Source: Hyphomicrobium sp. LHD-15
Lineage (GTDB): Bacteria; Pseudomonadota; Alphaproteobacteria; Rhizobiales; Hyphomicrobiaceae
Direction: 5' to 3'
DNA: 64,000 nt
NCBI RefSeq assembly: GCF_031157355.1
Contig: NZ_JAVIFT010000002.1
Span: 1 to 64,000, forward strand
Position 1 is the first letter of the stretch. Every line of letters begins with the position of its first letter. The notes under the pieces are model-generated. The model worked only from the letters and a program-made list of their open reading frames with translations, made no database searches and was not told the origin of the DNA. Shown here piece after piece: positions 7,285 to 64,000 of this stretch. The position numbers and the translations under genes were made by a program.

Positions 7285-8586
7285 ATGAACCGCCGCGTGC
7301 TCGTGCTGTTCGGAGAAGATCTGCCCGCTGTCGCTCTCGCTCAGCTCGATGCGAGCGGATCGTCGGCGGCCTGGCTGATCGATGTCGACGCGGGACGCAT
7401 CATCGCCGCCAACGGAAACGGCGCTGCTTTGCTCGGGCTCAACGGCGTCCGTGTGGTCGCCGACGCGGATCTCTCGCCACCTCTGCTCGACGCCTCGATG
7501 CCGGCGCTGGTCCGGTTGCGGGCGCTGGCGGCTTCATCAGACCAAGACACCAGCACCGAAGCCTTGGTTTTCTGGACCCGCAACGGCGCCCTGCGATTGC
7601 CGTGCCGTATTCATCTCTCACGCGCCCGTCTCCCACGCTCAGGCGCGCGTACGGTCGCAGCCATCATCGTTCAGGATCCGTCGCACGACCTCCACGATGC
7701 GTCCGACGCGGCAAATTCTTCCTTTGCCGGGAATGACGCGGCGAAGCTCAAGGAAATCGCGCGGCGCATCCACGAGGGGCAGGCCGCAAGAGGGCTCACT
7801 GAGGAGCGGGCCGGGCCGCGAACGCCGTCGGCTGCCGCTCTCTCAGACGGTGGCGCGTCTCCATCAGATCGCGAATTTTCGCCGACGCTTCGCGCGCGCC
7901 TTGCGCATGAACTCAAAACGCCGCTCAGCGCCATCGCGGCAGCTGCCGAAATCATGAAGGAACAACGCTTCGGCCCCCTCGGAAGCGCGCGCTATCTCGG
8001 ATACGCCTCCGATATCTTCGGAAGTGCGCAGCATATGATCGGCGTTATCGAGCGTATGCTGGCGGAGGGGACCGACCACGATCCGCTCTCGCTCGTTGCC
8101 GCGCTCGAGTTTGCGGAGATCGACGCGGGCGCGGTGCTCGCGGCTTCTGTTTCGCAGGTGGCACCACTCGCCGAGCGCGCCGGCATCGCGCTTGCGTTCG
8201 AGCTTGCCCCTCGCCTTCCGCACATCGTGGCCGATGCCACAAGCCTCCGGCAAATCGTGTTCAACCTCCTGACCAATGCCATCAAGTTCACGGAAAGCGG
8301 CGGATCGGTGAGGGCGGTTGCGCACTACGAAGTCGACGGCCCGTTCACGATCGCAATCTCGGATACGGGGTCTGGAATGACGCCGCGCGAACTCAGCAAT
8401 GTTTCGGATGCAATGAAGGCATCTCGTACGAAGCGCAAAGGCAAGGGGGCGGGACTTGGCCTCGGACTTCCGATGGTGCAAATGCTCGCCGAAGCGAACG
8501 GCGCCAGCCTCATCATCGAGAGCGTGCCAGGGCAGGGAACCTCGGCCTCGGTCGTGTTCCGGAAGGAGCGCGTGGTTCCGGTGTGA
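7285..8586 (+). CDS. PAS-like sensor histidine kinase, soluble
   Basis: A 433-residue kinase from the ATG at 7285 (a GTG at 7273 is possible). It has no membrane segment. Residues about 25-135 resemble a PAS/sensor fold (AAWLIDVDAGRIIAANGNG). The dimerisation domain carries the phospho-acceptor His near residue 208 (LAHELKTPLSA). The ATPase domain has the N box (NLLTNAIKFT), the G1 box (DTGSGM) and the G2 box (GLGLGLPMV). No response regulator gene is adjacent, so it is an orphan kinase. It precedes the Fe3+ transporter genes on the same strand, but a 229-base gap suggests a separate unit. Confidence 0.9.
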   Translation: MNRRVLVLFGEDLPAVALAQLDASGSSAAWLIDVDAGRIIAANGNGAALLGLNGVRVVADADLSPPLLDASMPALVRLRALAASSDQDTSTEALVFWTRNGALRLPCRIHLSRARLPRSGARTVAAIIVQDPSHDLHDASDAANSSFAGNDAAKLKEIARRIHEGQAARGLTEERAGPRTPSAAALSDGGASPSDREFSPTLRARLAHELKTPLSAIAAAAEIMKEQRFGPLGSARYLGYASDIFGSAQHMIGVIERMLAEGTDHDPLSLVAALEFAEIDAGAVLAASVSQVAPLAERAGIALAFELAPRLPHIVADATSLRQIVFNLLTNAIKFTESGGSVRAVAHYEVDGPFTIAISDTGSGMTPRELSNVSDAMKASRTKRKGKGAGLGLGLPMVQMLAEANGASLIIESVPGQGTSASVVFRKERVVPV

Positions 8587-54838: not shown

Positions 54839-57832
54839 TCACCAGGCGAAGCGAACGGCGCCCTTGCCGGCATAACCCGACGTGTTCTCTGAGAACTCGC
54901 CCTCGAAGGTGCCGAAAACGGAGAGGTTATTCTGCCATTTCACCTCGGCGCCGGCAGAGACGAGTGCGAGATCCTTCGACGGAACCGCGCCGTTCACCGT
55001 GAATGCGGAACCAGGGAGGGAGAGGAAACTCGCCGACACTAAACTGTCGTTGCCTTCGTCATGCGCCCAGGCGATGCGACTGCGCAGAGTCAGCAGGGCG
55101 TCGTCGAGCTTGAATTCGCGATCGAAGCGCGCGCCGAGTTCGGTGCGCGTGATGGTCGTGTGATTGGACTCGTAGTCGAGCGAAAATGCATCCGAGCCGG
55201 AGCCCGCGCTTTCCTCGTAGCCGGGCAGGTTGATCTGCGTGACCTGCAACGCCGCGTAGGGCGTGATGCCGACGAACGGAGTGGCATAGCGATAGCCGCC
55301 TTCGACGCGTCCGCCGAATGTGTTGGCATCGAACTTTGCTTTGAGGTCATCGACTCCCGACACCGTCACGGTGCGGTTGGTGGTGACATCCTGGAAGGTG
55401 TAGGCGAGGCCGGCGAAAACATAACCAGCGCCCATCGTTTGCTTGCCGAATACGCCGGTCTGGAGCATGTCGGCCTCGCCGCTGCCGAGCCCGCTCGACA
55501 CCCCGAACGATGACTGACCGCCGCCGAGTGCGAAGCCGAACAGCGTATCGCGGGAGAGCGCGTAGTCGGCGCCCGCAACAATGCCGTAGGTGCGGCTCGA
55601 CGTGTCGCCTGCTCCGCCGCTGCCGTTCGTGTCGCTGTTGCCGCCGTAGACCGTACCCCAGTAGTGCCGCTTCGGATCGGAGAAGGCGGCGCGCGACGCC
55701 TCGTGGGAAACTGCGCCGAGCGAACTGCGGCCGGCAGGTGCGGGCTTCGGCGCGTCTGCCGTTGCGGAACTTCCGGCAAGGCCGCGTCCGTAGGCGAACG
55801 GATCGAACACCGCGTTCATGAACTGGTTACTGGCGTCGTAGGCTGCCTGCTTTCCGGCAGCTGAAAGCTGGCCCGAGACCTGGGTCGTCGCATCCGTGAG
55901 CGCGGCGCCGCTGAGACTCATGAGGCCAACCATCTGCGAACTCGGCGTGGCGCCGGCCGAGAGGCTATTGTCGATCGCATCCACGATGGTTTTCGCGCTG
56001 CGCGAGGCGTTTTCCGGCAGTGCATTTGCTAGGTAGCCGCGATCGAGTGTCACGATCACGTCGTTGCCGACGATATCCCAGCCCGTCAGCGTCGCCAGAC
56101 CCAACCGGGTGACAGAGGCAGTATCGAAATCACCGGTCGTGCCGCCAACGGCGGTCAGAACTGTGTATGTCGACGTCGCGCCTATCCAGGTCGTGGGGGT
56201 AATGCTCAACGCGCCGCCGAGATTAGCAACGCCGGTCACGACGGTACTGTCGGATATGCCTGCACTGCCGGTCTTTACGGCATAGGTGCTGCAATTGCAC
56301 AGCATGAGAACGCCATCGATCGTCAACGTGCCGATGCTGTCCGGTGTGCCGGGCGCCAGTGTCGCGCCATCGTCGACGAACACAGAGCCGACCGTGCCTG
56401 TGCCACCGAGCGTTCCACCCGGATTGACGAACACGATGCCGGACGAATTCGTCGAGCCGTTCACCAGCAGCGTGCCGCCGTTGATGATCGTGTCGCCCGT
56501 GTACGTGTTTGCGGCGGAAAGGACTGTCGTGCCGGCCTCGACGGTCATGTCACCATCGCCGAGGATCTGCGTGCCAAAGGTGTAGTTGATGCTGGTGTGA
56601 TTGAACACGAGCTCGCCGTCACCGGACCCGAACTGCAAAGTGGTGGCATTGATTCCGCCTGGCGCGACAGCGGCGCTGCCCGACGCGGCGCCGATATTCA
56701 CTGTACCGCGAGAGCCGATTTGATCCGCGACTGTAATGCCACCTGCCTGGGCTGTTCCGCCGTTCGAGAGAGTCAAGGTACCGGTGCCGTCTTGACCGAC
56801 AACCACCTGCTCGGCACGCAGCAAAGAGCCCGCGCCGTCGACCGTGACAGTGCCGGAGCTACCCGCGACCTGACCGATTGTAATGTACCCCGGATGGCCG
56901 CCCAGCACCACGCTGCGAACCTCACCGCCATTGGTGACGTTCAGAACACCAGTACCGGAAAAGCCGATGGACAGGCTGCTCGTCTCGAAAAGAGATCCCG
57001 CTCCACTCACATTGAGGGTGCCGATCCCGGTCGCGTCCTGACCGACATATGCGCCACCGCCATTGATACCGTAATAGCCGCCAAAGAGCTCACCGCCGTT
57101 GATGACGTTGAGAGTGCCCGTGCCGTTAACACCGACGCCGATGTAATAAGTTGCCGTCCACTTCGATCCCGCACCGTCGATGGTCGCTGTGCCGACCGCG
57201 CCAGCTGCGGTACCGAGAACGGCGTGGCTTGTCCTCGCTTCTGCGCCATTGGTGATCGAAAGGGTCCCTGTTCCTTGCGTGCCAACGTGCAGCTGGCTGT
57301 ACAGATAGAAGTATGTACCGGGGCCATCGAGCCTGAGCGTGCCCTCCGACCCCACGCTGTTGGCGCCGAGCATCGCGAAACTGCCCCAAAATTCGGCGCC
57401 ACCTCGGAGGGAGACCGTTCCAGTCCCATCATAGCCGACGTAAAGATTGCCCCCGGCGTAAACACTCGAATTCGCGCCCGTCGCGCTAAACGTGCCAGAG
57501 GCGCCTGCGCCGTATCCTAGCCATATGGGACCCGTCCAGAGCGTCCCGTCGGAAATGGTGAGCGCGCCTGTCGAAGATTGGCCGATGACCAGTTGCGGGG
57601 TCTCATGGATGCCGCCGACGATGCGCGGAGCATTCGGCGACGTGGCATCGATAACGGCGTTCACGCTCGACCCGGGCGCGCCGCCGCTCCAGTTGGCTGC
57701 GTTCGACCAGTCGCTCGATACGTTGCCGGTCCAGTCGGTAGCGAGACCTGGCGAACCCACACCGAGCGCCGCAAGCCCAGCCGATGCGAGAAGCGTTGTT
57801 TTAAGTCTGGATGCGGACTTCGCTTTGGCCAC
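54839..57832 (-). CDS. Autotransporter with passenger-associated repeats and beta-barrel domain
   Basis: About 997 residues from GTG 57832, which has a GGGGGG tract upstream; a TTG at 57907 is the alternative. A signal peptide (LKTTLLASAGLAALGVGSPGLA) is followed by a passenger made of repeated strands such as VGQDGTGTLTLSNGG, VGYDGTGTVSLRGGAEF and IGFSGTGVLNVTNGGE (beta-helix type). The usual PATR-like TYTGDTIINGGTLLVNG precedes the translocator, whose C-terminal barrel ends GAVRFAW. It displays or releases the passenger at the cell surface. A hairpin lies in the leader if the GTG start is right. Confidence 0.9.
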   Translation of the reverse strand: MAKAKSASRLKTTLLASAGLAALGVGSPGLATDWTGNVSSDWSNAANWSGGAPGSSVNAVIDATSPNAPRIVGGIHETPQLVIGQSSTGALTISDGTLWTGPIWLGYGAGASGTFSATGANSSVYAGGNLYVGYDGTGTVSLRGGAEFWGSFAMLGANSVGSEGTLRLDGPGTYFYLYSQLHVGTQGTGTLSITNGAEARTSHAVLGTAAGAVGTATIDGAGSKWTATYYIGVGVNGTGTLNVINGGELFGGYYGINGGGAYVGQDATGIGTLNVSGAGSLFETSSLSIGFSGTGVLNVTNGGEVRSVVLGGHPGYITIGQVAGSSGTVTVDGAGSLLRAEQVVVGQDGTGTLTLSNGGTAQAGGITVADQIGSRGTVNIGAASGSAAVAPGGINATTLQFGSGDGELVFNHTSINYTFGTQILGDGDMTVEAGTTVLSAANTYTGDTIINGGTLLVNGSTNSSGIVFVNPGGTLGGTGTVGSVFVDDGATLAPGTPDSIGTLTIDGVLMLCNCSTYAVKTGSAGISDSTVVTGVANLGGALSITPTTWIGATSTYTVLTAVGGTTGDFDTASVTRLGLATLTGWDIVGNDVIVTLDRGYLANALPENASRSAKTIVDAIDNSLSAGATPSSQMVGLMSLSGAALTDATTQVSGQLSAAGKQAAYDASNQFMNAVFDPFAYGRGLAGSSATADAPKPAPAGRSSLGAVSHEASRAAFSDPKRHYWGTVYGGNSDTNGSGGAGDTSSRTYGIVAGADYALSRDTLFGFALGGGQSSFGVSSGLGSGEADMLQTGVFGKQTMGAGYVFAGLAYTFQDVTTNRTVTVSGVDDLKAKFDANTFGGRVEGGYRYATPFVGITPYAALQVTQINLPGYEESAGSGSDAFSLDYESNHTTITRTELGARFDREFKLDDALLTLRSRIAWAHDEGNDSLVSASFLSLPGSAFTVNGAVPSKDLALVSAGAEVKWQNNLSVFGTFEGEFSENTSGYAGKGAVRFAW

Positions 57833-57851
57833 TCGCCCCCCGGCAGATGAA

Positions 57852-57879
57852 CGGCCTGCCGTCGCAGACCGGCAGGCCG
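57852..57879 (-). promoter_or_regulatory. Leader hairpin of the autotransporter gene
   Basis: CGGCCTGCCG and CGGCAGGCCG form a perfect 10-bp stem with an 8-base loop, 20 bases upstream of the proposed GTG start and next to the G-tract ribosome-binding site. If translation started at the TTG at 57907 this stem would be coding. Confidence 0.5.
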
Positions 57880-57949
57880 AATCACATTTATTATTGTGTG
57901 CTGACAAACAGATGTCGTTCTATTTTTCGTAGAGCGAAATTCGACCGGG

Positions 57950-58219
57950 CTATTTGCCCTTCCAGCCCGATTCCTTGCTGCACTGTTCCATCACCTTGGG
58001 ATTGGCCTTCTCCCACTCGGTGATCGAGCGCGACTCGTCGTCTGACATCTGGTTGTTCATACAGGTGCAGTACTTGGTGACCACATCGGCGGCTTGTTTC
58101 TCGTCCTTGTTCTCGATCACGCAGTCGCCGATCCATTTGGCATCGTCGGAATTTTTGTCGGCAAGGGCAGGCGTTGCGAGGCAAGCAAGCATCGCGATGA
58201 GGGCAGCGTGACGTTTCAT
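57950..58219 (-). CDS. Small secreted Cys-containing protein
   Basis: An 89-residue protein with a very strong GGAGGAAAAAA leader before the ATG at 58219. A signal peptide (AALIAMLACLATPALA) is followed by an acidic, helical mature part with four Cys (IGDCVIENKD, TKYCTCMNNQ, MEQCSKESG). The pattern of a C-x-C pair flanked by single Cys suggests disulphides. No family name. It lies between the autotransporter and the quinoprotein module, on the same strand. Confidence 0.82.
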   Translation of the reverse strand: MKRHAALIAMLACLATPALADKNSDDAKWIGDCVIENKDEKQAADVVTKYCTCMNNQMSDDESRSITEWEKANPKVMEQCSKESGWKGK

Positions 58220-58389
58220 TTTTTTCCTCCATCCAAAGCGGATGAAGCTCTATGCCCAGGCGAATCAGGCGGTGTCATCTCATTCCGCGCAAAGTGTTGC
58301 GGCTAGAGAAGAGAGTGGCACGAATACATCAGCATCCTGAGGGATCTTGTTTGGGAGACTGCAAGGGCGGGTGCCTGACGGGAGCGGCC

Positions 58390-58707
58390 TCACTCTCGGG
58401 GGCGCAGCAACTCCAAGCTATCGAAGCTTCTAGGCGTGCTCTCGATCATGCACGAGCGATCGTCGAACGTGTCCGTGCAAACAACGACAACACCATCCGG
58501 ATAGGCGTTTACGTCCCGGCAGACAGCCTTGAAGCGCCGCTCGGCTTTGCCGCTCTCAAGGCGGGTCAGATGCTGGACGCCGCAGGACGTTTTCAGATGC
58601 AGCAGGCGCCGGATCATGTAGTCGTGGATTTCCGCCGCTGCCTGGACGGCGCCGCCGATTTGTACGCCAAACAGCGCGAGCACGAAAAGCAGAGGCTTCC
58701 GGCTCAT
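58390..58707 (-). CDS. Secreted small protein of the quinoprotein module, unknown
   Basis: A 105-residue protein beginning MSRKPLLFVLALFGVQIGG with a likely signal peptide ending near AVQAAAE. The mature part has three Cys (KTSCGVQHL, KAVCRDVNAY, VVCTDTFDD, and a further DRSCMIES) and reads as a small alpha/beta domain. Its start overlaps the stop of the SoxYZ-like carrier gene by four bases (ATGA), which indicates translational coupling. It is the last gene of the module. Confidence 0.78.
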   Translation of the reverse strand: MSRKPLLFVLALFGVQIGGAVQAAAEIHDYMIRRLLHLKTSCGVQHLTRLESGKAERRFKAVCRDVNAYPDGVVVVCTDTFDDRSCMIESTPRSFDSLELLRPRE

Positions 58708-59525
58708 TGCTCGGACTGTGCCCGGAACAGCTTGCCGTCCGTATCGCGCGCCACAACCGTCAGCGGGACTGGATCGTTGCGGGCGAACGTGAAGCGGAAG
58801 TTCGGGTCCTCGGAGATCGCGATCCCGCTTTCAATCGTAAGCAGGCGCATCGCGCCGGCATCGACATCGATGCGATCCACGACCCGGACCGGCGTGTAGG
58901 TATTGGTGCGCGTATCGATCTGCATGCCGGAAAAATTTGGATGCCGGATCATGAGCTGCACCTCATTCCATGCCTGCCCTCTGGTCGGCTCGCGCGCAAT
59001 CTTGAGTTTGATCTTGCCGATGCCGGCAAGCGCCTCGTCCATATCCTTCAGCGACGTCGACGTGCAGCCCCCGGCCCCGCTCACGAACTGGCTCGCCTCA
59101 TAAAGCGCGCCATCGTCTGACTCGAGGATCGCGCGGACCCGGCTCATGGACTCGAGCCGAACGCGCACCTCGATAGTGCGGTCTCCGATCTCGCCGCCCG
59201 ACCGATAGGCTTCACCGAATATGAAAACCGCCGCGACGGGCGCCGGGTTCTGATCCACCACCAGCGTCAACTGCTTGGCGCGGGCGACGCGATCGGCTGC
59301 GATGTATATCGTCAGCGGAACCAGCGCGGCGTCTTCTGCTCGCTTCGGCGCGAAGAGCTTGACCGATTGGCCGTCGCTCGCGATCGGGCGCTCCTCGAAC
59401 AGGCTCGCCTTGATCTGCGTCCACGCTTCATCGTCCGCCTGCGCGGACTGTGCCGAAAGTGCCAGCGCCGCGGCCGCGATCCACCTTAGCCACACCTGCC
59501 CGTGTCTTGTCCGCTTACGTCGCAT
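58704..59525 (-). CDS. Quinoprotein dehydrogenase-associated SoxYZ-like carrier protein
   Basis: A 273-residue periplasmic protein from the ATG at 59525. A signal peptide (IAAAALALSAQSAQA) is followed by a SoxY-like half ending in the carrier Cys154 within FVSGAGGCTSTS, and a SoxZ-like half (KIKLKIAREPTRGQAWNEVQ, MIRHPNFSGMQIDTRT). This fused SoxY-SoxZ family occurs with PQQ dehydrogenases rather than with thiosulphate oxidation. Its chemistry is not known. It lies between PedF and the terminal small protein in the same transcript. Confidence 0.9.
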   Translation of the reverse strand: MRRKRTRHGQVWLRWIAAAALALSAQSAQADDEAWTQIKASLFEERPIASDGQSVKLFAPKRAEDAALVPLTIYIAADRVARAKQLTLVVDQNPAPVAAVFIFGEAYRSGGEIGDRTIEVRVRLESMSRVRAILESDDGALYEASQFVSGAGGCTSTSLKDMDEALAGIGKIKLKIAREPTRGQAWNEVQLMIRHPNFSGMQIDTRTNTYTPVRVVDRIDVDAGAMRLLTIESGIAISEDPNFRFTFARNDPVPLTVVARDTDGKLFRAQSEQ

Positions 59526-59533
59526 GGTGAAGC

Positions 59534-59962
59534 CTACTCGGGCTGGGAATCGATGTAGGTGCGGATGGCCCAGATGGCTTCCTGGTTCAACAACCCGTCG
59601 AACGGCGGCATCTTCTGGCGACCACCGACCGTCGCACCATTGAGAACGCGGGAGATGAACCATGCGTCCTCGGTCTCGCCCTCGCCGAGCTCGCGCAGGT
59701 CCGGCGCCATACCACCCGATTTGGCTTCGAGCCCGTGGCAGCGGGCGCAGTTCGAGTTATAGCCGCGCGAGCCGATCTCGATAGCGGCGGCGCGCTGTTT
59801 TTCGTCGGTGCGATAAGGATTGATTGCAAGCCATTCGTCACCGAGGGGCGCGAGGCCGGTGGTGTCGACGGGCTGGGGGGCGCCGTCACCATGGGCAAGA
59901 GCCGCGGTCGCGGGCATTGCGAAGAAGAGAACGAGGGCCAGAGCGGCCGATCGCGGAATCAT
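59534..59962 (-). CDS. pedF: Cytochrome c-550 PedF
   Basis: A 142-residue secreted c-type cytochrome. The signal peptide ends near TAALAHG. The mature N-terminus QPVDTTGLAPLGDEW is the PedF hallmark. The haem site is CARCH (Cys72, Cys75, His76) and the distal ligand is probably Met118 in GGRQKMPPFDG. In Pseudomonas PedF takes electrons from PQQ ethanol dehydrogenase. Here it belongs to the same run of genes as the PQQ alcohol dehydrogenase. Confidence 0.93.
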   Translation of the reverse strand: MIPRSAALALVLFFAMPATAALAHGDGAPQPVDTTGLAPLGDEWLAINPYRTDEKQRAAAIEIGSRGYNSNCARCHGLEAKSGGMAPDLRELGEGETEDAWFISRVLNGATVGGRQKMPPFDGLLNQEAIWAIRTYIDSQPE

Positions 59963-59978
59963 TCGTGCTACCTCGTTG

Positions 59979-60419
59979 CTAGTTGGTTTTCTGATCCGAA
60001 TGGGGCTCTAGCCATATGCGCCAGGACTCGCTGCCGTTGATGTCGAGGAAGTAAATGCCTGACCGGTCGATCACGTAGCTCGCCTCGCCGCCTCCCCCGA
60101 GGTGCAAGTTCTGGATGACCTCGTTGGCGTCTGACTTGAGGTAGAGGACAAAAATCGCGCCATCGCTCTGGAAGCGCAGAGTGGTCGGCGCTTCGATGTG
60201 GAAGCGTTCCGTTGTTTTGTTGAGGCGTCCGGAAAAGCTCGGCGTAACGCGCTTTCTCACCTCGCGGTCGTAGCAGGCAAGGCGCGGGGCATCGTCGGCA
60301 ATAGCGAGGCATTGGAGCGCGCCGTCGCGGCTCTCTGCAGCGCGCGCAGGTTGCGCCCATGCTGCGGCGAGAACCATGCTGGCTCCGAGCCACCAGACCG
60401 TTGCGGGACAGCCTCTCAT
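59979..60419 (-). CDS. Secreted protein of the quinoprotein module, unknown
   Basis: A 146-residue protein; the ATG at 60419 overlaps the pentapeptide gene stop (ATGA). A signal peptide (VWWLGASMVLAAAWAQPARA) precedes QCLAIADDAPRLACYDREV, a motif also seen at the N-terminus of small periplasmic proteins such as the VasI/TagO type. A beta-rich part follows (TTLRFQSDGAIFVLYLKS, VIDRSGIYFLDINGSESW). No function is known. Its position between the pentapeptide and PedF genes suggests a part in the quinoprotein pathway. Confidence 0.82.
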   Translation of the reverse strand: MRGCPATVWWLGASMVLAAAWAQPARAAESRDGALQCLAIADDAPRLACYDREVRKRVTPSFSGRLNKTTERFHIEAPTTLRFQSDGAIFVLYLKSDANEVIQNLHLGGGGEASYVIDRSGIYFLDINGSESWRIWLEPHSDQKTN

Positions 60420-61108
60420 TGGCCCGACGCCGGCTCCCACTTCGTTTTGTCCTGCTCCCAGACCTTTCCGCCCGTCTGCCAATCGTGCGGACAACCGGTG
60501 CATCCCTCCATGAACGCATCCTGGAAGATCGCGAAGCGAATCTTCACTCCGTCAAAGACGGCATTGGAGAGGTCTGCTTCGTAGAACTTGGTCTCCTGCA
60601 GATCCGTATTGATGAATTTAGCGCCGTTGAAGCGAACGCCTTTCGCCCAAGCGCTTTCGAGCGTCGCGGCGGTGAGATCGGCCTCCGAAAAATCGGCTCG
60701 CGCCATGCGTGCGAACGAGAGATCCGCCCCTCGCAGCGTGGCGCGCGAAAGCTTGGCGCCTTGCATAAAGGCGATCTCAAGACGCGCGCCGTCGAGATTG
60801 GCTTCGGTCAGGTCGGCACCCTGTAAATTGGCGTGGCGCAGATCGGCACGTGCGAGGCGCGCACCCTTGAGATTTGCGCCTTGCAGATTTGCGTCCTTGA
60901 GATCCGCGTGGCGCAGGTCGGCGCCTTCACAGGAGGCGTTCGGCGCGATGGTGCAGCCATTAACGACCCAAGGGCTTGGCCGCTCCTCGACATTCCGTAT
61001 GACCGGATAGTCCTGGGCCTGTGCGGAGTGGGAAACCGCACCAACGGCGCCAACAGAAACGATCGCAAGCGCAATCGCCTCCGTAGCTCTACGAAAGAAT
61101 GGGATCAT
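60416..61108 (-). CDS. Secreted pentapeptide-repeat protein
   Basis: A 230-residue protein from the ATG at 61108. A signal peptide (IALAIVSVGAVGAVSHSAQA) leads into a domain of about 25 A(D/N)LxX repeats (for example GADLRHADLKDANLQGANL), flanked by an N-terminal Cys pair region (NGCTIAPNASCEG) and a C-terminal CTGCPHDW. This is a right-handed quadrilateral beta-helix placed in the periplasm, which is rarer than the cytosolic type. It is the first gene after the dehydrogenase terminator and is coupled to the next gene. A scaffold or chaperone role is guessed. Confidence 0.9.
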   Translation of the reverse strand: MIPFFRRATEAIALAIVSVGAVGAVSHSAQAQDYPVIRNVEERPSPWVVNGCTIAPNASCEGADLRHADLKDANLQGANLKGARLARADLRHANLQGADLTEANLDGARLEIAFMQGAKLSRATLRGADLSFARMARADFSEADLTAATLESAWAKGVRFNGAKFINTDLQETKFYEADLSNAVFDGVKIRFAIFQDAFMEGCTGCPHDWQTGGKVWEQDKTKWEPASGQ

Positions 61109-61140
61109 CAGCTTGTTCCCGAGCGGCCACGCTTGCGGGT

Positions 61141-61180
61141 AAAAGGGCAGTCGGCCTCGCGTGGCTGAGGTCGACTGCCC
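61141..61180 (-). terminator. Intrinsic terminator after the PQQ alcohol dehydrogenase gene
   Basis: On the minus strand, GGGCAGTCG and CGACTGCCC plus an inner CCTC/GAGG form a long stem followed by TTTT, about 48 bases after the dehydrogenase stop. It would let the dehydrogenase be made in excess over the downstream genes. Confidence 0.85.
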
Positions 61181-61227
61181 GGAGGGCTCAAGCGGGGAGA
61201 GAGGAACGATCGCCCGCTCGAGTGGGA

Positions 61228-63135
61228 TCACTCGGCCGAAGCCGTGGTGCGCGGAACCTCAAAGACCCAGAACGAACCGCCTTGGCTCACCTGCTTGGTC
61301 TGATCGGCCATGTCACCGCCCCACAGCGGCACGGCGCCGCCGTAGCCCGATGCGATGCCGATGTACTGCTTGCCATCTAGCTCCCAGGTGACGGGCTGAG
61401 ACACGACGCCGGAGCCGGTCTGGAACTTCCACAGCTCCTTGCCGGACTTGGCGTCGAGAGCCTTCACGAAGCCGTCGCTGGTGCCGGTCAGGACCCAGCC
61501 ACCCTTGGTCGTGAGCGTGCCGGCCCAGAGCGGCATCTCTTCCTTGTGCTCCCAGACGATCTTGCCGTTGGTCGGATCGAGTGCGCGAAGCACGCCGACG
61601 TGGGTGTCGAACTGGCGCTTGATGCGGAAGCCTTGACCGAGATAGGCAGCACCCTTCTTGTAGGCGATGTTCTCGGTCCAATAGTCTTCCGACCAGTCGT
61701 TCGACGGGATGTAGAAGAGCTTGGTTTCCTGGTTATAGGACATCGGCATCCAGTTGGTGCCGCCGAGGAAGTTCGGCGTCACCTTGATCGCCTGGCCCTT
61801 GGTCTCGCCTGCTGCGGGAGCCGGCGGACGCTGGCCTTCAACCTCGTTCGGGCGGCCCGTCGCGAGATCCCAACCCGTTGCCCAGCTGATGTTCGGGACG
61901 AACGGATAGATGCCAAGCGCGGTGCCGGCCTGCTTCGAGATCTTGCCGTCGCGGGCCGTCAGCTTGTCGATGTCGGTGATGAACAAGAAGCCGTTGCGAT
62001 CGGCGTGGGCGCCGGCGCGGATGGTCTTGCCGTCCTTCTCCATCTCGAACAGCGTGATCGGGTTGTTACCCGAATAGTCCCACGCATCGTTCGGCGTGTG
62101 CTGGAAGAAGCCAACCGGCTCGCCCGTCGACGGCTCGATGTAGACTTGACCCGACGTGTAGAGGCTGTCGTACGGCTTCCAGTCTCCGTTCGGACCCGAA
62201 CGGTAGTGGTGGTTCCATGGAGCCGGATTGCCGGTGCCGATGACGATGGTGTTGGTCTTTTCGTCATAGGTTGCCGACTGCCAGGGCGCGCCGCCGCCGT
62301 GGTTCCAGGCCTCGACCTTGCCGCCATCCTTGTTGTTCGGCCACGACGGGGCCTTGGGATCGCCGGTGGGCGTCGAGTCCTTGCCGTTCAGGCGACCCTT
62401 GTGGCCTTCGACGAGGGGACGCATCCAGATTTCCTCGCCGGTGTCCGGATCGCGCGCATAGAGGCGACCGACGACACCGAACTCGTCGCCCGACGAGCCG
62501 TGGATCAGGAGCACCTTGCCGGTCTTCTTGTCCTTGATGATGTTCGGCGCGCCGGTCATCGTGTAGCCGGCAGTGTGGTCCTCGAACTTCTTGCTCCAGA
62601 CGACCTTACCGGTCTTGCGATCCAGAGCGACAATGCCCGCATCGAGCGTGCCCATGTAGAACTTGTCGCCGTAAAGCGCGCCGCCACGATTGACGACGTC
62701 GCAGCAGGGGCGGATGTCGTCGGGCAAGCGGTGCGAATAGGACCAGAGGCGCTTACCGGTCTTGGCATCGAGCGCGAACGCACGCGAATAGGAGGCGGTG
62801 ACGTAGATCACGCCGTCGTGCACGAGCGCTTGCGTCTCCTGGCCACGCTGCTTCTCGTCGCCGAACGAGAACGACCAGGACGGCTTCATCTGGCCGATGT
62901 TGTCGACGTTGATCTGATCGAGCGTGCTGTAGCGATGGTTGCGAACACCCATGCCCCAGCTCACCACATCGCCCGTGGTGCTCTCGTCGTTGAGGATGTC
63001 CTCCCACGTCACCGGCTTGCTGCCGGCGGTTTCCGCAGAGCTCGGAATGCTCGAAGTGAAAACGGCAATTGCAAGGGTGGATGCGGCCGCAAAAAGGCTC
63101 GCGTTGACGCCCCGAAGGGGGTGTCTACGTTGCAT
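61228..63135 (-). CDS. PQQ-dependent alcohol dehydrogenase, periplasmic (methanol/ethanol dehydrogenase family)
   Basis: A 635-residue eight-bladed propeller enzyme from the ATG at 63135, which follows GGGAGAAACGCC. A signal peptide ends around SSIPSSAETA. The adjacent disulphide Cys144-Cys145 (IRPCCDVVNRGG), metal ligands Glu218 (GSSGDEFGVVG) and Asn303 (GTGNPAPWN), and catalytic Asp353 (PNDAWDYSGNN) are present. Two residues after Asp353 is Ser, where lanthanide (XoxF/ExaF) enzymes have Asp and MxaF has Ala, so Ca2+ use and an ethanol-type role are favoured. It needs PQQ made elsewhere and probably feeds PedF. Confidence 0.95.
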   Translation of the reverse strand: MQRRHPLRGVNASLFAAASTLAIAVFTSSIPSSAETAGSKPVTWEDILNDESTTGDVVSWGMGVRNHRYSTLDQINVDNIGQMKPSWSFSFGDEKQRGQETQALVHDGVIYVTASYSRAFALDAKTGKRLWSYSHRLPDDIRPCCDVVNRGGALYGDKFYMGTLDAGIVALDRKTGKVVWSKKFEDHTAGYTMTGAPNIIKDKKTGKVLLIHGSSGDEFGVVGRLYARDPDTGEEIWMRPLVEGHKGRLNGKDSTPTGDPKAPSWPNNKDGGKVEAWNHGGGAPWQSATYDEKTNTIVIGTGNPAPWNHHYRSGPNGDWKPYDSLYTSGQVYIEPSTGEPVGFFQHTPNDAWDYSGNNPITLFEMEKDGKTIRAGAHADRNGFLFITDIDKLTARDGKISKQAGTALGIYPFVPNISWATGWDLATGRPNEVEGQRPPAPAAGETKGQAIKVTPNFLGGTNWMPMSYNQETKLFYIPSNDWSEDYWTENIAYKKGAAYLGQGFRIKRQFDTHVGVLRALDPTNGKIVWEHKEEMPLWAGTLTTKGGWVLTGTSDGFVKALDAKSGKELWKFQTGSGVVSQPVTWELDGKQYIGIASGYGGAVPLWGGDMADQTKQVSQGGSFWVFEVPRTTASAE

Positions 63136-63218
63136 GGCGTTTCTCCCAAATAAGTTTTTCAAAGGCGAACTATTTCGTCGCCGGTTTGCAAAAATCAGAA
63201 ATGCCAGACAAACGTCTA

Positions 63219-63234
63219 TTCGCCTTTTGGCGAA
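63219..63234. promoter_or_regulatory. Inverted repeat TTCGCC-tttt-GGCGAA upstream of the dehydrogenase
   Basis: Perfect 6-bp arms with a 4-base centre, 84 bases before the dehydrogenase start. It could be an operator or a leader hairpin. Confidence 0.45.
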
Positions 63235-63287
63235 ACCGGCTCAATTGTCGGCCATTCCTAGACGAATGTATAAGAGGCCTGTTCCTA

Positions 63288-63312
63288 TTACTCCCTGCTA
63301 GACAGGGAGTAA
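63288..63312. promoter_or_regulatory. Perfect 10-bp inverted repeat upstream of the dehydrogenase
   Basis: TTACTCCCTG and CAGGGAGTAA flank a 5-base centre, about 150-180 bases before the dehydrogenase start. No T run follows on either strand, which speaks for an operator rather than a terminator. Confidence 0.6.
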
Positions 63313-63551
63313 CTCCCAGTTACAATCATACTATTGCAACGCGCCCGTAAAAATGCCCCGATCCCTAGCTAGGTCGCGGGCAGCCCGGCTGGTGTCGAGC
63401 CCTTTCCGCTGGCCGATTTCATCGCTCAGGGCTGGGTAGGAATTGGTCTCAGCCTCGTCGCTTCGGGCCGGGGAGATGTGCTAAACACAATAATCCTACG
63501 TCGGACGGTCAATCCCAAAGAACACGCCCGAACCCCAAGCCACTTTTCAAA

Positions 63552-63581
63552 CGACCCATGTTTTAAGACGCTCATGGGTCG
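63552..63581. promoter_or_regulatory. Perfect 9-bp inverted repeat upstream of the glycosyltransferase
   Basis: CGACCCATG and CATGGGTCG flank a 12-base centre, 39 bases before the glycosyltransferase ATG. Confidence 0.5.
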
Positions 63582-63619
63582 AACTTCGCTGGAGATCCCA
63601 CGAATTACAGGCCTGATTG

Positions 63620-64000
63620 ATGAGTAACGGTTTGCGTATTGCAATCACTGTCTGCACACGTGACAGGCGGGAACTTTTACAACTCTGCCTGGAATCGATC
63701 CTCCGGCTTGAGGTTCCTCAAAACATTCAGCCTGTTGTCGTTGTCGTTGAGAACAACGCTTCGCCCGCCTCCCAAGTGTTCGTTGAAGATCTTGCACGGG
63801 GCGCAGCTGCGCCGTGGAAGATCATTTACGGCCATGAACCCACGCTCGGCATTCCCATTGCGCGGAACCGGTCGCTCGACATCGCGCTCCGTGAAAAACC
63901 GGATTGGATTGCGTTCGTCGACGACGATGAGACCGTCGATCCAAAGTGGCTCGAACGGATGCTTGTTGCCGCCGAGGAGTTTCGCTGTGACGTCCTGCAC
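63620..64000 (+). CDS. Family-2 glycosyltransferase, N-terminal part (runs off right edge)
   Basis: An open frame from ATG 63620 to the window edge (127 codons). It starts RIAITVCTRDRRELLQLCLE, the nucleotide-sugar-binding opening of GT-A family-2 enzymes, followed by VVVVVENNA, LGIPIARNRSLD and the metal-binding AFVDDDETVD. The DDD triplet supports an active transferase that uses an NDP-sugar. The acceptor cannot be told from the fragment. No ribosome-binding site is obvious upstream of the ATG. Confidence 0.85.
   Translation, partial: MSNGLRIAITVCTRDRRELLQLCLESILRLEVPQNIQPVVVVVENNASPASQVFVEDLARGAAAPWKIIYGHEPTLGIPIARNRSLDIALREKPDWIAFVDDDETVDPKWLERMLVAAEEFRCDVLH

Follow-up and report, generated by a model that had tools for sequence, protein, structure and literature searches.

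An alcohol dehydrogenase operon of the calcium (ExaA/PedE) type with PedD and two unnamed exported partners

The window, a 64,000-nucleotide stretch of Hyphomicrobium sp. LHD-15 DNA, holds a run of minus-strand genes (58390–63135) that raises the question of what a pentapeptide-repeat protein and two small Cys-containing proteins do beside a periplasmic quinoprotein alcohol dehydrogenase. The initial annotation described six consecutive genes here, and all six ORFs, from the dehydrogenase to a 105-residue protein, were located in the sequence. Their N-termini are all signal-peptide-like as judged by eye, and export of all six proteins is therefore predicted.

Gene content and relation to known clusters

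The first gene (61228–63135) encodes a 635-residue PQQ-dependent alcohol dehydrogenase that scores 700 bits against TIGR03075 (cut-off 480). Its best relative in the PDB is the quinoprotein ethanol dehydrogenase 1flg (946 bits over residues 40–628), ahead of 6zcw (637 bits), which we take to be PedH. The metal-site motif is NDAWDYSGNN, with a Ser two residues after the catalytic Asp, and the aligned sites read NDAWDYSG in the window, NDAWDFSG in 1flg and HDGWDFDG in 6zcw. Ser or Asp at this residue separates the calcium from the lanthanide type, and metal type was assigned from this one residue in all of our surveys. By sequence, the window enzyme is of the ExaA/PedE calcium type, its calcium dependence being predicted from the Ser. 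It also carries vicinal cysteines in the motif RPCCD.

The dehydrogenase gene is followed by genes for a 230-residue pentapeptide-repeat protein (60416–61108; Pfam Pentapeptide, 143 bits, cut-off 20.2), an unnamed 146-residue protein, P3 (59979–60419), cytochrome c-550 PedF (59534–59962; TIGR04494, 182 bits, cut-off 122), a 273-residue quinoprotein dehydrogenase-associated fused SoxYZ-like carrier (58704–59525; TIGR04557, 218 bits, cut-off 140) and an unnamed 105-residue protein, P6 (58390–58707). The SoxYZ-like ORF has a longer alternative reading of 319 residues whose start lies inside pedF. Two ATGA overlaps had been proposed and both were read in the sequence, one joining the pedD stop to the P3 start (60416–60419) and the other the SoxYZ-like stop to the P6 start (58704–58707). 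Because the same gene order recurs in many genomes, the arrangement is more than chance, and we assign the six genes to a calcium-type ExaA/PedE alcohol dehydrogenase operon, the metal type being predicted, with unnamed partners. An 89-residue gene at 57950–58219 was rejected as a seventh member, having no match at 37 other loci and reaching no family cut-off. No Rfam RNA was found in 57900–63700, and a promoter and terminator scan of the locus gave hits no more frequent than in shuffled sequence.

The pentapeptide-repeat protein had been regarded as a non-standard part of such a locus, a view that does not hold, for it is already in print as PedD or QedB (PMC12997753, PMC12875217). We make this identification from its sequence and place, a pentapeptide-repeat protein with export predicted by eye directly beside a calcium-type dehydrogenase. 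It is 30–45% identical to the PedD proteins of eight loci of our phylum sample (L137–L144), a set that does not include the P. putida PedD itself. Its cysteines are Cys52 and Cys60 and, in a C-terminal CxxCPxxW motif, Cys203 and Cys206. Cys203, Cys206, Pro207 and Trp210 are identical in 50 of 50 aligned PedDs, and Cys52 and Cys60 in 49.

The operon is a known ped-type cluster in a new form. In Pseudomonas putida the order is pedD-pedE-pedF-pedG-PP_2677-PP_2678-pedH, and the entries consulted in the gene table of the review that gives it include no P3- or P6-like protein (PMC12997753). The two clusters share the calcium dehydrogenase type, PedD, PedF and the SoxYZ-like carrier. In the window, unlike in P. 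putida, PedF and SoxYZ come after PedD on the same strand, and the genome has no SoxH-like gene reaching its cut-off and no PedH type, the next best dehydrogenase being 39% identical. The small qedA1-qedB operon of methylotrophic Pseudomonas P14/P15 likewise pairs a dehydrogenase with a pentapeptide-repeat protein, but the passage and figure legend that describe it mention neither P3 nor P6 (PMC12875217, citing Promden et al. 2008). The exaA-PA1981 pair of Pseudomonas aeruginosa combines a calcium ExaA with a PedD homologue, whereas the account of it gives no homologue of the SoxYZ-like PP_2677 and no P3- or P6-like protein (PMC12997753). Rhodobacterales plasmids (Paracoccus sp. TOH, Paracoccus marcusii, Ponticoccus alexandrii) carry a cassette of the order pedF-SoxYZ-SoxH-ADH-PedD-'hypothetical protein', in which, as in the window, PedD is followed by an overlapping P3, annotated in these records only by that phrase. 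Here PedF and SoxYZ lie upstream, in contrast to the window, and P6 has no match on plasmids. Among 14 further family loci, some of which are short contigs, 5 have the SoxYZ-like gene next to the cassette. Variable across loci, the carrier was rejected as a core component; it is an optional member, a separate quinoprotein accessory that is shared.

Linkage to the calcium-type enzyme

What is new in the operon is the specificity of its partners for the Ser-type enzyme. We surveyed 114 dehydrogenase ORFs (at least 500 bits, rows with identical last 200 residues removed), a set that includes loci picked for holding P3 (L058–L071, L095–L136). PedD adjoins 50 of the 52 Ser-type enzymes and none of the 61 Asp-type enzymes, one further enzyme (L172) being untyped because its metal motif is unreadable. 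The two Ser-type rows without PedD are a locus with two broken frames and a 38-bit PedD piece (L175) and one at a contig end (L178). In a phylum sample for which the dehydrogenase was the sole criterion of choice, PedD is found beside 10/10 Ser-type and 0/31 Asp-type enzymes, one enzyme of that sample being untyped; the phylum and order dehydrogenase searches took at most three candidates per genome at E 1e-150. Moreover, all 20 plasmid records with a 60–80% identical dehydrogenase carry PedD just downstream; these records score at least 142 bits and 25 others listed at most 96 (45 of 129 records listed). The dehydrogenase had no match in phages. PedD is thus linked with the calcium type, as predicted from the Ser residue, whereas the lanthanide (Asp) type shows no such link, a specificity that the initial annotation had not noted.

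The linkage of P3 and P6 is narrower. In the order of the window's genome (397 genomes), both give strong matches in the same 17 genomes, all of them among the 21 with a Ser-type enzyme; the remaining 4 of the 21 have neither. These counts join three surveys of 397 genomes each, in which the listed genomes were compared and the rest taken as the same set, and leave uncounted three weak partial P3 hits in genomes lacking a Ser-type enzyme (G158, G101, G184; E 7e-7 to 6e-6). In the phylum sample, P3 and P6 lie beside 2 of the 10 Ser-type enzymes and are missing beside 8; on the plasmids, P3 is absent from 12 of the 20 records and P6 from all 20. Co-occurrence of the small partners with the dehydrogenase, as first supposed, consequently stands within the order (17/21) and fails in the phylum sample (2/10), and these gaps make P3 and P6 at most lineage-specific additions. 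One P6 profile search that came back empty lacked a positive control of its own; in the order, that profile did find the 17 genomes.

Some loci depart from this pattern. P3 and P6 of Hydrocarboniphaga (L127) and of one Neptuniibacter (L131) also have an Asp-type enzyme no more than a few kb away, while at L132 and L134 an Asp-type enzyme is the only dehydrogenase in view near P3/P6; all four genomes also hold a dehydrogenase 68–70% identical to that of the window. Two metagenome assemblies (G839, G840) contain P3, at or near a contig end, and no such dehydrogenase at E 1e-100.

The P3 and P6 families

P3 reaches no Pfam or NCBIfam cut-off, and relatives were found at 42 loci. Its model (pLDDT 86.9) comprises a helical hairpin, in which Cys37 and Cys49 are invariant in the alignment of relatives (A4), followed by an eight-stranded beta sandwich. 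It also occurs in Rhodobacterales and Gammaproteobacteria, mostly directly after PedD, and 27 of 39 distinct PedD–P3 junctions show a four-base overlap, a count that excludes L118, whose P3 frame starts 66 bases later. In the enzyme tree, every row of one 35-row clade (SH-aLRT 99, by a quick method without bootstrap) has P3, and the clade takes in both alpha- and gammaproteobacterial rows; P3 was scored by distance (3 kb), so that L131 counts as lacking it although its locus holds one. VasI (PF11319) was rejected as the family of P3, which scores 12.0 bits over residues 36–58 only (gathering cut-off 26.5); 27 of 37 relatives match VasI at E up to 0.5, the best at 0.0017. A GOLD or jelly-roll beta-sandwich fold is a candidate for P3, the fold search giving a best match of Z 8.9 (rmsd 3.8, 88 aligned) with many unrelated sandwiches within 1 of it. 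By sequence no solved structure is a convincing relative, the top rows being methane monooxygenase regulatory protein B at E about 0.7. A longer dehydrogenase loop (26–27 vs 15 residues) was rejected as a P3 docking site, being found in P3-less loci (L072–L074, L144) and absent in L131.

P6 likewise falls below every Pfam and NCBIfam cut-off. It has four invariant cysteines (42, 63, 77 and 86; alignment A5), a model of pLDDT 88.6, a best fold match of Z 5.8 (rmsd 3.9, 65 aligned) and no solved relative by sequence. The fold searches gave no family for either protein, and kinship between the two was rejected (hhalign probability only 0.65%). No publication on P3 or P6 was found in a literature search made through the names of partner genes, both proteins being nameless. 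The two are conserved protein families now defined. The initial expectation of a compact quinoprotein module of exported proteins, two of them undescribed, Cys-containing and conserved together with the dehydrogenase, was confirmed.

Proposed role of PedD, P3 and P6

The dehydrogenase would oxidise alcohols in the periplasm and pass electrons to PedF, a passage established for the Pseudomonas relatives. We tentatively favour the reading that PedD, P3 and P6 belong to the calcium enzyme as periplasmic accessories, most probably for its assembly or stabilisation. PedD, whose predicted beta-helix carries a Cys pair at either end, may be one such factor, and P3, with its Cys hairpin and beta sandwich, and P6 may be others. 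By analogy with the mxaACKLD genes, regarded as accessories of MxaF, a calcium enzyme, rather than of XoxF, they might help the apoenzyme to acquire or retain calcium and PQQ in vivo. Both sets accompany a calcium enzyme, although PedD, P3 and P6 matched no Pfam or NCBIfam model of the mxa kind, and neither in P3 nor in P6 could a metal site be recognised, which speaks against an assembly role. In P. putida, PedE and PedD (PP_2673) both decrease with La3+ on glycerol and 2-phenylethanol (PMC7188995), and growth of P. putida U with several short-chain alcohols is described as impaired when pedD is truncated (PMC12997753); we count both for an accessory role with the calcium enzyme. When produced in E. 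coli BL21, where PedD is presumably absent, PedE is reported active at 1 mM Ca2+ with the artificial acceptors PMS/DCPIP, and Methylopila PedE is reported active in Methylorubrum extorquens (0.72 U/mg), a host that may have its own PedD, P3 and P6. Given activity in both foreign hosts, the accessories do not look strictly required.

A stronger form, which we consider doubtful, is that the three proteins, P3 and P6 being new families, make up an assembly line in the periplasm that is specific for calcium and corresponds, for ExaA, to the mxa calcium-insertion genes. Such a line would let cells that have both calcium and lanthanide enzymes in one periplasm supply each enzyme with its proper metal. 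The calcium/lanthanide switch of these enzymes is known mainly as a matter of transcription, and a protein set tied to the calcium enzyme makes a post-translational layer of the switch directly testable. PedD, called uncharacterized in a 2026 review (PMC12997753), gains a specific hypothesis, and there is a possible bearing on the production of these enzymes in foreign hosts.

It is unlikely that the three proteins instead join the calcium dehydrogenase to PedF, or tune the cytochrome, with no assembly role. P6 adjoins pedF or lies one gene away in most loci, and the eight loci with P3 and without P6 (Rhodoblastus L110, L118 and L123; Gammaproteobacteria L121, L124, L125, L126 and L136) have no pedF in view either; the activity of E. 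coli-made PedE, measured with artificial acceptors, leaves transfer to the cytochrome outside that assay. However, a PedF-like gene lies no more than 5 kb from 34 of the 61 Asp-type enzymes, all without PedD, and one would hardly expect a factor serving PedF electron flow only to avoid these enzymes. P3 stays with PedD even where pedF is elsewhere or upstream, and P6 is present at L132 and L134 with no pedF in view.

MxaI is a small subunit of MxaF, and P3 and/or P6 could similarly be stable small subunits of the dehydrogenase, as might be supposed of small exported Cys-conserved proteins that share one set of 17 genomes in the order, each with a Ser-type enzyme. This is distinctly improbable: the P. 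aeruginosa ExaA is a homodimer that lacks small subunits, and 1flg contains two ExaA chains. Moreover, P3-bearing and P3-less enzymes (37 vs 11 rows) differ consistently only at Phe509 and Ser617, which gives no clear docking patch, and P6 has additional unlinked copies in four genomes.

There is also a slim chance that the proteins are operon passengers, linked to the enzyme type mainly by joint inheritance of one cassette. The gammaproteobacterial rows L121, L124, L126 and L136 are nested in a clade of alphaproteobacterial rows (SH-aLRT 99), as if the cassette had moved whole, and linkage in a cassette that moves as a unit need not imply physical interaction; yet the invariant cysteines and motifs of PedD, P3 and P6 over wide divergence argue for a selected function. 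Least probable is that PedD serves something other than the enzyme, such as biofilm or envelope physiology, an idea put forward in the 2026 review, which describes the protein as predicted extracellular and alcohol-induced (PMC12997753, section 12). Against this, PedD adjoins one metal type of the enzyme in three classes, the alpha-, beta- and gammaproteobacteria, and on plasmids as well as chromosomes, which points to the enzyme itself.

The window cassette and its dehydrogenase

The initial annotation described six consecutive minus-strand genes at 58390-63135 of the window, joined in two places by ATGA overlaps; all six genes are present at these positions and both overlaps are seen in the sequence. 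In transcription order they encode a PQQ alcohol dehydrogenase, a pentapeptide-repeat protein, a 146-aa exported protein (P3), the cytochrome c-550 PedF, a fused SoxYZ-like carrier and a 105-aa exported protein (P6). The dehydrogenase is of the ExaA/PedE type, with 1flg as its closest solved structure, and in the alignment its metal site reads NDAWDYSGNN versus NDAWDFSGNN in 1flg and HDGWDFDGVN in 6zcw (PedH). One residue of this site distinguishes calcium-type (Ser) from lanthanide-type (Asp) enzymes. Dehydrogenase matches scoring 210 bits or more occur at 12 places in the window's genome, which also has two pqqC matches above the cut-off; its second-best dehydrogenase is 39% identical to that of the window. 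This second enzyme (L002, C7:94049-95626) also has NDAWDYSGNN, with an in-frame TAG in the match.

The pentapeptide-repeat protein had been held not to be a standard part of such a module. It is PedD, which is already in print in a review of the ped cluster (PMC12997753) and also as qedB, and the claim is therefore incorrect: the cluster is of an already known kind and its pentapeptide member is already known. According to that 2026 review, PP_2673 is pedD, encodes a pentapeptide-repeat protein, adjoins pedE and is homologous to PA1981, which adjoins exaA; truncation of pedD in P. putida U gave poorer growth on several short-chain alcohols, and the role of PedD is there called undefined (PMC12997753). 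The name qedB for pedD is given, with 2008 work cited, in PMC12875217, and La3+ lowered the abundance of both PedE and PP_2673 in P. putida on glycerol and 2-phenylethanol (PMC7188995).

Directly downstream of P6, an 89-aa Cys-bearing protein (57950-58219, minus strand), whose start resembles a signal peptide, had no match at the 37 other loci searched. A 1022-aa ORF (54839-57907, minus strand) looks autotransporter-like by eye, with repeated passenger segments.

Association of PedD with the calcium-type enzyme

As judged from the metal-site residue, the link of the cassette appears to be with the calcium type. This residue is Ser in 52 and Asp in 61 of 114 distinct dehydrogenase ORFs, one being untyped, and PedD lies within 1.5 kb of 50 of the 52 Ser-type enzymes versus none of the 61 Asp-type enzymes. 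The two Ser-type exceptions are a contig end and a broken dehydrogenase accompanied by a short PedD piece. Because part of this set was gathered via P3, two samples gathered by dehydrogenase match alone, from the window's phylum and order, weigh more. In the phylum sample (398 genomes), PedD is found at 10/10 Ser-type and 0/31 Asp-type places, with one further place untyped; P3 and P6 stand beside two of the ten. The order sample (397 genomes) holds a Ser-type enzyme in 21 genomes, of which 20 have PedD and 17 have P3, the same 17 having P6, and G030, G139, G190 and G811 have neither P3 nor P6; in G192 the gene is split across contigs L178 and L078. In the remaining 376 genomes P6 had no match at E 1e-5, and P3 matched just three times, each match being weak and partial.

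A dehydrogenase match is present in 106 plasmid records and is 60-80% identical to the window's enzyme in 20, a grouping by identity and not by metal-site residue, and PedD lies just downstream by coordinates in all 20. Ranked by PedD score, these plasmids also take the first 20 positions, each with at least 142 bits, and the next 25 among the best 45 of 129 records score at most 96 bits. The constant pair is the dehydrogenase and PedD. The strictness of the PedD-calcium link appears to be new, in that we did not find it in print in the literature on PedD/PedE and the mxa genes.

In G811 (L175 7636-10000) the dehydrogenase frame is broken in two and PedD is short, reflecting decay or assembly errors.

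Proposed role of the accessory set

The periplasm and PQQ are common to Asp-type and Ser-type enzymes, and a PedF-like gene lies within 5 kb of 34 of the 61 Asp-type enzymes. PedD is nevertheless beside none of the 61. When a factor accompanies a single metal type, the simplest explanation lies in what is peculiar to that type. Such an accessory factor may help the calcium-type enzyme to take up or keep calcium and PQQ, or may stabilize the protein. The mxa set, thought to serve the calcium enzyme MxaF and not XoxF, provides a precedent for calcium-specific accessories, and the table of one paper lists mxaACKLD with the Mxa-type enzyme. Counting against an assembly role, PedE made in E. coli is reported to be active at 1 mM calcium, and Methylopila PedE made in Methylorubrum extorquens to be active at 0.72 U/mg. 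Given this activity, the accessory set would be helpful at cellular calcium levels and dispensable in vitro. The chief alternative is that the set serves docking for electron transfer, because the E. coli-made PedE was assayed with artificial acceptors.

P3, P6 and the variable members

P3 and P6 are two conserved unnamed families. Neither window protein matched a Pfam or NCBIfam model at cut-off, their relatives gave weak Pfam matches only, and structure comparison assigned no family to either. P3 is predicted to form a helical hairpin bearing its two invariant cysteines, Cys37 and Cys49 (37-row alignment), placed ahead of an eight-stranded sandwich (mean pLDDT 86.9), and P6, with invariant Cys42, 63, 77 and 86 (32-row alignment), a small helix-and-sheet protein (pLDDT 88.6); both probably contain disulfides.

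A P3 match occurs in 15/103 genomes of the window's family, and a search of named genomes gave 42 loci, including Hyphomicrobium, Methylobacterium, Methylorubrum, Methylopila, Rhodoblastus, Rhodomicrobium, Methyloceanibacter, Methyloligella and Filomicrobium and, among gammaproteobacteria, Nevskia, Hydrocarboniphaga and Neptuniibacter. PedD is directly upstream at 37 of the 42; of the remaining five, three are from Neptuniibacter, one is from Hydrocarboniphaga and one is at a contig end. A four-base stop-start overlap is present at 27 of 39 distinct PedD-P3 junctions. Eight of 72,556 plasmid records, all from Paracoccus, Gemmobacter or Ponticoccus, carry P3, in each case annotated 'hypothetical protein' and in each case with PedD and a 60-80% identical dehydrogenase; three of the eight were examined at full length.

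P3 broadly tracks the dehydrogenase's own tree, being present in every row of a 35-row clade (SH-aLRT 99) of alpha- and gammaproteobacterial enzymes and, outside it, at loci L127 and L131. At these two loci, which run against the rule, P3 and P6 are near an Asp-type enzyme as well, and at L132 and L134 the Asp-type is the sole dehydrogenase type in view; each of the four genomes additionally encodes a dehydrogenase that shares 68-70% identity with the one in the window. No such dehydrogenase was found in two P3-bearing metagenome assemblies, where P3 is at or near contig ends.

At eight loci, three from Rhodoblastus and five from gammaproteobacteria, P6 was not found and pedF is likewise out of view. 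A genome-wide search of seven of the genomes concerned also gave no P6, and six of the seven have PedF over cut-off elsewhere. In G245 the genome's sole P6 match is on a different contig from the cassette (L209 7609-10972), adjoining ORFs with weak matches that score 47 bits for the dehydrogenase and 22 bits for PedF. Extra unlinked copies of 83-86 bits occur at L205 7892-8254, L206 7686-8048, L207 3232-3594 and L208 3132-3509, where the adjoining ORFs match none of the other five cassette proteins, and two tandem copies share an operon at L114 3145-3946 and L135 8812-9491.

The SoxYZ-like carrier is variable, adjoining the cassette in the window and at 5/14 family loci. In Rhodoblastus acidophilus (L110 8360-11320 and L118 8303-11224, the family search covering L110), DUF1194 (VWA-like) and NosR-like proteins follow P3, their genes occupying the place of PedF and P6 elsewhere; the L110 NosR-like protein scores 532 bits, under the cut-off of 1000, and has a 4Fe-4S domain and a weak FMN-binding match. 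Cytochrome b561, named from its L091 member (7762-8361) and assigned by ORF cluster to similar ORFs in 11 others, is near the cassette in 12/52 Ser-type loci, a possible link to the quinone pool.
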